NCBI GenBank assembly: GCA_003551965.1
Contig: PUOC01000091.1
Location: 1-39,035 of the forward strand
Length of the DNA stretch: 39,035 bases
DNA from: Clostridiales bacterium
Lineage (GTDB): Bacteria; Bacillota; Limnochordia; Darwinibacteriales; B1SED10-159
Reading direction: 5' to 3'
The notes under the pieces were generated by a model. It saw nothing but the letters and a program-made list of their open reading frames with translations. It was not told the origin of the DNA and ran no database searches. The number at the start of each line of letters is the position of its first letter. Position 1 is the stretch's first letter. A program made the position numbers and the translations under genes. This document shows, piece by piece, positions 7,074 through 9,109 of this stretch.

Positions 7074-7640
7074 TGCGGCAACCACCGGTCTCTTACGGGC
7101 GATGCCCTGCCCCGACCTTGATTTACATCTCTCAGGAGGTGTGAACTCCCGGCTTGCCGGCCTCATCCTGGAACCGTCGCAGTGGGAGCAATCGGTGCTG
7201 CGGGATCACTGCCCGTGGGGACTGCTGCCCAAAGGGACATTTTGACCATCGGCCCATGGCAATTATCAGCGGCACCACCTAGAAGAACCGACGGTGCGCT
7301 GCCAACAAGGATTCCGTTGCACACTTCGGCAGCAGGACTTTGAACGCAGAACGGCGGTCACCTTCTCTCCTCTCTTTGTCAGAGTGATCCAACCTGTTTC
7401 CGCAGGAGGATGCCAACCCACAGGGAACTCGTGCTCTCCAACTCCAGGCACACATGCATTTTCTCGGCATAGGCCCCACCTTGGCACCGTAGCCATAGGG
7501 GCAAGCAGTGCGGTAGGGATGGACGGCCTCCTGGTTTTTACTGCGATGGAAGCCATTTTGAGAACAGGGCATTTCTTGCGGCTGGGATGAAAACCGGCAG
7601 GTCGAGCCTGTCATCCCGGGCGTTTCCGGCTGCCCAGAAA
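7074..7640 (-). other. Long leader between the riboswitch terminator and thiT
   Basis: About 570 bp without a convincing gene. In the minus direction it holds several hairpins: GGGATG/CATCCC (around 7584-7617) with an inner CAGG/CCTG stem; GCCCC/GGGGC enclosing TGGC/GCCA (around 7475-7504); and a GAGG/CCTC element near thiT (around 7135-7165). Two overlapping minus-strand reading frames (7266-7556 and 7279-7677) each look partly protein-like, for instance a CPYGYGAKVGPMPRKCMC stretch in one and GEHEFPVGWHPPAETGW in the other, as if one small gene were frameshifted. Neither has a ribosome-binding site. I cannot assign a function. Confidence 0.4.
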
Positions 7641-7674: not shown

Positions 7675-7690
7675 CATACGATCAACGCAC

Positions 7691-7773
7691 CGCTTCCCTT
7701 CGTTGGAATTAACCGAACAGGTTCTAAGGGTAAGGCAGAACCTTTCTCAGCCTCTCATGGGCACCCCTAGCGG
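7691..7773 (-). promoter_or_regulatory. TPP (thiamine pyrophosphate) riboswitch
   Basis: The minus strand carries the conserved THI-box parts in order: CCGCT-AGGGGTGCCC (P1/P2 5' side), GGCTGAGAAAGG, ACCCTTAGAACCTG, CGGTTAATTCC and CGAAGGGAAGCGG, with P1 closed by CCGCT/AGCGG. Ligand binding would favour the terminator at 7641-7674 and shut off thiT and the thiamine pyrophosphokinase. A possible -10 box TATAGT (7776-7781) lies just before the aptamer but its -35 is poor, so the start of this transcript is uncertain; read-through from the RNA gene upstream is also possible. Confidence 0.93.
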
Positions 7774-7812
7774 AAACTATACAGTTGGTTAATAGGATAT
7801 TCTCCCTAGAAA

Positions 7813-8313
7813 CAAAAAACCCTCCAACAGGAGGGTAAAAATGCAGACAGAAGGTTGGTTTTCCGGAGACTTCCCAAGTGTCGTTAGACGCACAGATGGC
7901 AGCACAGAGCGGCGGCAGTCAGTTGATTCCGCCCAAGGAACATGACTGGTGCTAAGGTTGGCCACTTGAACTGTGGGTTCATGTGTAGCCGGACATGGTC
8001 TTCTGGTTCCTATGTTAACGGCCGTGCCAAGAGCTGTATCATGTATGCGCTTGCATCCGAGGCTGTAAGTTCTGACCTCGAACCCGCCTGGGAAGGACCG
8101 GCTTCTCGTGTGCACGAAAAGCTGGGTTGTCGTTGCTCCATCCAAAATCGAGCTTTCAGGTGACAGCATCCTTGCATTGGTTTTCGTTCCGTACCAAAGG
8201 GAGACGTGATGATAGATTTGTGTTGCAATGGTTTGGCTGCGAACCAGATTGCCGCAGGGCATTCCTCCTTGGATGAAAGTTCCTTCTGTCTGCAAACGCA
8301 TCATCCCGCTTGC
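7813..8313 (-). ncRNA. Large structured non-coding RNA, unidentified (~500 nt)
   Basis: A stand-alone RNA gene inferred from three signals. A consensus sigma-A promoter (8320-8348) puts transcription start near 8313. An intrinsic terminator (7814-7835) ends it. Between them, the 5' segment TGCAGACAGAAGG (8294-8282) is perfectly complementary over 13 nt to the 3' segment CCTTCTGTCTGCA (7854-7842), closing the molecule like other large structured RNAs. Internal hairpins include an 8-bp stem with a GCAC loop (8102-8121), GCAAT..GGTT/AACC..ATTGC (8225-8252), ATGC-AAGC-GCAT and GGCGG/CCGCC. It lacks the signature sequences of RNase P RNA, tmRNA, SRP RNA or a T-box. A 171-codon frame runs through it and through the terminator (8304-7789) but has no ribosome-binding site. 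It lies between rpe and the TPP riboswitch. Confidence 0.7.
7814..7835 (-). terminator. Intrinsic terminator of the large RNA
   Basis: In the minus direction CCCTCC-TGTT-GGAGGG is followed by TTTTTTG. It begins 7 nt after the 3' strand of the closing helix and separates the RNA gene from the TPP riboswitch. Confidence 0.9.
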
Positions 8314-8319
8314 AAGTTT

Positions 8320-8348
8320 ATTATAGCTCGACTTAATGCACTTGTCAA
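8320..8348 (-). promoter_or_regulatory. Consensus sigma-A promoter of the large RNA
   Basis: Both boxes are exact consensus: TTGACA (8343-8348) and TATAAT (8320-8325), 17 nt apart. This is the strongest promoter in the window and it drives no recognisable protein gene, consistent with a highly expressed RNA. Confidence 0.92.
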
Positions 8349-8458: not shown

Positions 8459-9109
8459 TCAGCTGCGAACTGCTCTACGCATGGCCTCAATATAGGCCTG
8501 CGGTTCCTTCGCCCGGAATATGGACGAGCCGGCCACCAAGATCGATGCCCCCGCAGTTACCAGGGCCGGTGTATTATCGATACTAATTCCGCCATCGACT
8601 TCAATGGCAATAGGACGCTGCCCCACAAGTTCGCGGGCTTGTCGTATCTTATCGATACTGGCCGGAATAAACTCCTGGCCTCCAAACCCAGGGTTTACCG
8701 ACATGATCAGGATCAGGTCTACCTGATCTAAGATCGGATGCAGCCACCCGACGGGAGTGTGGGGATTCAACGAAACGCCGGCGCCCGCACCCAGACTGCG
8801 GATCAGAGAGAGGATGCGGTGAAGATGCACAGTAGTTTCGTAGTGCACCGTGATAAAGGCCGGATGGAGACTGGCCACTTCTTCGATGTACTGTTCGGGG
8901 TTGTCAACCATGAGATGAACGTCCAGCGGCAGATCGGACGATCTGGCGGCTGCTTCAGCAATCAAGGGTCCAAAGGACAGGTTAGGGACGAAATGTCCGT
9001 CCATCATGTCAATGTGGAGCAAGTCAGCGTTGGCCACAGATTGGAGCTGGTCGCCCAAGCATGCAAAATCTGCCGCCAAAACAGAAGGGCTAATCCGCAA
9101 ATCGTTCAT
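8459..9109 (-). CDS. rpe: Ribulose-phosphate 3-epimerase
   Basis: Interconverts D-ribulose 5-phosphate and D-xylulose 5-phosphate in the pentose phosphate pathway. The 216-residue TIM-barrel protein shows the family motifs ISPSVLAADFACLG (6-19), LHIDMMDGHFVPN (metal-binding His and Asp), DVHLMVDNPEQ, SVNPGFGGQEF and EVDGGIS, then AGSSIF in the phosphate-binding loop. ATG with AAAGGAG upstream. It is the last gene of the rlmN-FHA-stp-prkC-rsgA-rpe unit, 13 nt after rsgA, the same order as in Bacillus subtilis. Confidence 0.97.
   Translation of the reverse strand: MNDLRISPSVLAADFACLGDQLQSVANADLLHIDMMDGHFVPNLSFGPLIAEAAARSSDLPLDVHLMVDNPEQYIEEVASLHPAFITVHYETTVHLHRILSLIRSLGAGAGVSLNPHTPVGWLHPILDQVDLILIMSVNPGFGGQEFIPASIDKIRQARELVGQRPIAIEVDGGISIDNTPALVTAGASILVAGSSIFRAKEPQAYIEAMRRAVRS

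Follow-up and report, generated by a model that had tools for sequence, protein, structure and literature searches.

A conserved structured RNA element downstream of rpe in one family of Bacillota

What does contig PUOC01000091.1 encode in the stretch from rpe to the TPP riboswitch of thiT? The DNA analysed, positions 1 to 39,035 of the contig and referred to here as "the window", carries several hundred nucleotides at this place that the original prediction described as the gene for a large structured RNA of no listed class. Such a region could be a stand-alone RNA gene, a regulatory leader of the operon that follows, a diverged copy of a listed large RNA, or a short protein-coding frame.

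The element and its relatives

The element lies on the minus strand, with the following features.

9109..8459, minus: rpe
8348..8320, minus: sigma-A promoter TTGACA-17-TATAAT, 12/12 consensus positions
~8313 to 7813, minus: predicted RNA, its start placed 7 nt after the −10 box and its end in the terminator T tract
8294..8282, minus: 5′ arm of the P1 closing helix
8264..8269, minus: AGGAGG, invariant; possible antiterminator or Shine-Dalgarno (SD)-like word
8234..8246, minus: small hairpin candidate TGG-TTCGCAG-CCA, tentative, read directly
8193..8219, minus: core AAATCTATCATCACGTCTCCCTTTGGT, 26/27 nt identical in three genomes
7927..7940, minus: hairpin TTCC-TTGGGC-GGAA
7854..7842, minus: 3′ arm of the P1 closing helix
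7836..7819, minus: intrinsic terminator ACCCTCC-TGTT-GGAGGGT, a 7-bp stem followed by a T tract
7778..7678, minus: TPP riboswitch (RF00059, 64.8 bits)

The exact-consensus promoter of the original prediction is indeed present, as is the helix that closes the RNA. This helix, "P1", consists of 13 Watson-Crick pairs joining the 5′ and 3′ ends of the RNA; among 2,000 dinucleotide-preserving shuffles, none had an end-to-end helix of 13 bp, and the longest reached 12 bp. An intrinsic terminator lies just past P1, as predicted, with a gap of 5 nt rather than 7. The claim of many internal hairpins fares less well: the complete RNA has a predicted folding energy of −168 kcal/mol, with z = −2.66 relative to shuffles, meaning that the internal hairpins of this single sequence are only mildly better than chance.

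The original prediction had called for a search for homologues. A DNA search of 61 genomes returned matches only in G001 and G002, both of them other sequenced members of the same family. Searching for an exact 17-nt stretch of the core identifies G001 as PWMW01000264 ("Clostridiales bacterium CSSed10_292") and G002 as SLOZ01000127 ("Limnochordia bacterium CSSed165cm_473"). Both are soda-lake sediment MAGs, with sample names that agree with those of the Cock Soda Lake studies. Both relatives carry the RNA after rpe; in G001 the TPP riboswitch and thiT come next, and in G002 the contig breaks off within the RNA. In the source genome, ~460–500 nt (7100–7640) separate the terminator of the TPP riboswitch from thiT. 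G001 has no such stretch, its thiT starting within ~60 nt. The stretch has no match in Pfam or Rfam and none for a promoter or terminator, and can be read as an insertion or a decayed gene.

The length of the RNA varies from ~330 nt in G001 to ~480 nt here (330–500 nt overall), and most of the interior has diverged. Against this background, AGGAGG is invariant across the three genomes, and the block AAATCWATCATCACGTCTCCCTTTGGT is identical at 26 of its 27 nt. The rpe proteins of these genomes are only 68% identical, so a nearly unchanged 27-nt block indicates that selection acts strongly on the nucleotides themselves. The TTCYTTGGGCGGAA hairpin is also conserved; TTCC in the source genome is TTCT in G001, with pairing kept as U-G. 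The tentative hairpin at 8234..8246 has counterparts in G001 (GTGGG-CTCGCAT-CCCAC) and G002 (AGGG-CTCGCAC-CCCT), and competing pairings exist.

The flanking signals are also kept. The promoter scores 12/12 in the source genome, 11/12 at the corresponding position in G001, and ~10/12 in G002 (by eye), and P1 starts within a few nucleotides of the predicted RNA start in both relatives. The terminator stem is identical between the source genome and G001, and the loop differs. RNAalifold consensus folding, which was not told about P1, recovered the helix with two changes affecting both sides of a pair (G-C to A-U and A-U to G-C). A third compensatory change can be read directly, by comparing GACAGAAGG/CCTTCTGTC with GACAGGAA/TTCCTGTC. 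Both arms of P1 are present in two sequences, those of the source genome and G001, G002 being cut by the contig end; in G001, the helix has 11 bp, the same as the maximum among its own 2,000 shuffles. For G002, the 3′ arm was predicted in advance as CCATCCTTGTCTG; thiT was not found in this 79%-complete genome. Consensus folding of the three sequences supports P1 and the small hairpins and does not settle the interior; with three sequences, P1 and the UUCY/GGAA hairpin are the best-supported parts of the structure. The element is thus a non-coding structured RNA conserved in sequence and in place, with P1 compensated between two species and promoter and terminator retained, as the original prediction of an unlisted structured RNA had proposed.

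Beyond the family, we searched with a covariance model ("R1") that covers the 5′ part and the core; it was built from three related sequences and may miss diverged relatives. Within the family, R1 gives each of the three genomes a score of 96 to 112 bits. Outside the family, scores reach at most 26 bits across all 37 genomes of the order, the other 36 of the class, and 398 drawn from the phylum, some of which also belong to the class. The weak matches that were read out mostly resemble coding sequence and have no GGGCGGAA hairpin downstream; these did not include a match of 21 bits in G064. A 20-nt pattern, allowing 2 mismatches, had a sole extra match among 73 class genomes, in G019; it was rejected, having no other element of the RNA with it. 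The exact 17-mer occurs in 16 stretches across 84,980 species, with the rest of the RNA present only in L014 (G001) and L025 (G002). Viral contigs gave only unrelated matches, and plasmids and phages gave none. By these searches the RNA appears to be lineage-restricted, with no other credible member found in the class, the 398 phylum genomes or, for the exact core, ~85,000 species.

Listed RNA families and coding potential

The architecture of the element, with closed ends, a length of several hundred nucleotides, and its own promoter and terminator, resembles that of listed large RNA families, and a strongly diverged member of one of these (e.g., OLE, RNase P, tmRNA, 6S, ROOL or raiA) would look similar. 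At the element, none of the Rfam 15 covariance models reaches its gathering score in any of the three genomes. Such scores are reached only by TPP and tRNA; the best of the others, RyhB (16.6 bits) and isrF (8.8 bits), are far below their cut-offs. Up to E = 10, Rfam returned nothing credible at the locus, in line with the earlier statement that no known large-RNA signature is present. The models for OLE (RF01071), RNase P, and 6S RNA (RF00013) have no match at the locus, and tmRNA is found there neither by RF00023 nor by ARAGORN. The source genome carries these RNAs elsewhere: OLE at G000:C194:4229-4867 (486 bits), 6S RNA at G000:C86 (97.5 bits), tmRNA at G000:C1 (187 bits), and an RNase P RNA candidate at G000:C291:6473-6791. 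The latter gives a full-length match to the type-B model that, at 57 bits, does not reach the cut-off; it is probably type A rather than type B. Because the OLE, 6S, tmRNA and RNase P candidate loci all lie elsewhere, the RNA described here is additional to them, and we consider a diverged member of a listed family very improbable. A literature search found no description of this RNA.

A second alternative is that the conserved block encodes protein, as part of a short leader peptide or small protein in which AGGAGG, a perfect SD sequence, precedes the codons for HHVSLW. A GTG 6 nt past AGGAGG opens a frame into the block in G001, and a 171-codon frame in the source genome (8304..7789) also passes through it. 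The corresponding frames have 29 codons in G001 and 19 codons in G002, where an in-frame stop lies between AGGAGG and the core and the remaining 19 codons include no ATG, GTG or TTG. No reading frame or start is common to the three genomes, the 171-codon frame has no match in Pfam, and third codon positions within the block are invariant, which speaks against selection for the peptide. The peptide reading is already contradicted by these sequences, and we give it hardly any credence; the absence of a protein gene holds as originally stated. None of the three outcomes named in advance as speaking against the original prediction, namely an Rfam match, a lack of compensatory changes, and conservation of the 171-codon frame, was seen.

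Read on the opposite strand (8193–8219, plus), the core resembles a ribosome-binding site followed by a start codon (AAAGGGAG-ACGTG-ATG), and does so in each of the three genomes. The plus-strand frames behind that ATG diverge after three codons.

Relation to the TPP-thiT operon

The terminator and the TPP riboswitch are 40 nt apart, confirming that the element sits directly upstream of the riboswitch; thiT (Thia_YuaJ, 3e-45) and then a thiamin pyrophosphokinase gene follow. The main rival to a stand-alone RNA is that the element acts in cis, as a long leader controlling the TPP-thiT-thiamin pyrophosphokinase operon by attenuation or in the manner of a riboswitch. Such a leader would have two states: pairing of AGGAGG with CCUCC(U) of the terminator would allow transcription to continue, whereas formation of the terminator would turn thiT off. 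The TPP riboswitch would act as a second gate; it belongs to the same unit only if the element is a leader, and is otherwise a neighbor.

Several observations are consistent with a leader. First, the invariant AGGAGG is complementary to the 5′ strand of the terminator, with a duplex of about −10 to −11 kcal/mol, as compared with −12.6 to −12.8 kcal/mol for the terminator hairpin. AGGAGG and CCUCC(U) are both invariant, such that this complementarity comes with no variation between sequences. Moreover, a purine-rich word that complements a terminator strand can arise by chance, and AGGAGG has other possible partners within the RNA (CUCC of the core, and AGCCUC). Second, the terminator stem has been kept between the source genome and G001 while its loop changed. 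Third, there is no promoter scoring ≥9/12 between the terminator and the TPP riboswitch in either of these genomes. Fourth, the element is directly ahead of TPP-thiT in both genomes with a readable downstream side, a position that weighs little because gene order is kept across the whole region.

Other properties fit a leader poorly. At 330–480 nt, with a poorly conserved interior, the RNA is long for one, and for a vitamin transporter the 12/12 promoter would be unusually strong. To reach a partner 290–400 nt away, the antiterminator would also have to cross or open P1. Leaders with riboswitches in tandem, one of them for TPP, have been reviewed (PMC9481103). The element resembles these in its position directly upstream of a TPP riboswitch and in its possible terminator/antiterminator pairing; it differs in being much longer than the usual aptamers, in its strong promoter, and in having no known ligand. 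Overall, we regard a cis-acting leader as unlikely, while giving it far more weight than the diverged-family and peptide alternatives. If it were correct, the TPP riboswitch would be preceded by a second regulator of unusually large size, the element itself.

A stand-alone RNA and its possible function

We favor, with somewhat better than even confidence, a stand-alone, lineage-restricted structured RNA gene. Such an RNA would be transcribed from its own consensus promoter, would have its ends closed by P1, and would stop at its own terminator. The variable interior would be a scaffold that holds three constant parts: AGGAGG, the 27-nt core, and the TTCY-TTGGGC-GGAA hairpin. The RNA may act in trans, offering a largely single-stranded core to a partner. 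The separate transcript, the action in trans and the nature of the partner are all points that we infer.

Predicted pairing of the core averages 0.33 in the source genome and 0.30 in G001, as compared with 0.60 and 0.56, respectively, for the RNA overall; in the cut G002 piece, which is without the 3′ part, the core is not less paired (0.52 versus 0.56 overall). These folding models suggest that the core, as an open strand kept constant on a closed but variable scaffold, could be the contact site for a partner. Our first guess is that the partner is translation-related, because the core contains CUCCCUUU, which is anti-SD-like, and because CCAAAGGGAGACGTGATGAT, the complement of the core, resembles a ribosome-binding site followed by ATG; a protein partner would be nearly as likely. 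A search of the three genomes for core-complementary sites (17 nt, ≤3 mismatches) found no excess over a reversed control, so an anti-SD partner stays a guess; this search covered long complementary sites, and short seed pairing would not show. The most specific version of the proposal is that this is a new class of large RNA confined to one soda-lake Bacillota family, acting in trans on translation through an anti-SD-like strand presented by a closed scaffold, with AGGAGG as a second, SD-like word in the same molecule. We consider this version doubtful, less probable than the leader and more probable than a diverged listed RNA.

The core also resembles the 3′ end region of 16S rRNA (AUCAC-CUCC-UUU) with small insertions, AUCAC-gu-CUCC-c-UUU, a likeness that may be due to chance.

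Gram-positive regulatory RNAs of the RsaE/RoxS and FsrA type use C-rich, unpaired seeds against SD sequences, and are much shorter than the RNA described here. The invariant strand CUCCCUUU, C-rich and predicted to be largely unpaired, is similar to such seeds; the RNA as a whole is far longer, and the 17-nt search showed no enrichment of target sites for it. Large structured bacterial RNAs beyond a few well-known examples are rare, and some come from extremophiles. OLE RNA (RF01071) is one large structured RNA of extremophilic Bacillota and occurs in the same genomes; its model has 616 positions and does not match here, the genuine OLE of the source genome being the one at G000:C194. A further RNA for comparison is the smtA motif ("Soda Lake RNA", HRC-65-1), found in the Gram-negative Thioalkalivibrio upstream of smtA and next to purH (PMC11109978). 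As described there, it too is a structured RNA of large size (>350 nt) that occurs in a single soda-lake bacterial lineage and has no assigned function. The RNA described here is set apart by its host, a Bacillota family, and by its neighbors, rpe and thiT. The scan of 84,980 species did not find its exact 17-nt core in Thioalkalivibrio, and nothing shows kinship between the two, which were compared by description rather than by consensus. We rate the element as a new family within an established type, that of large, lineage-specific structured RNAs.

The reach of this family is limited by its narrow known spread and by there being no culture. As an RNA family that is not listed in Rfam and has a precise core, a closing helix and predicted expression, it is open to soda-lake RNA data, and RNA from Cock Soda Lake sediment has already been sequenced (SRP144042; PMC6704655).

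Separately, OLE RNA was found in 12 of the 13 genomes searched in this order (458–502 bits), a large share for an RNA that is supposed to be sporadic.
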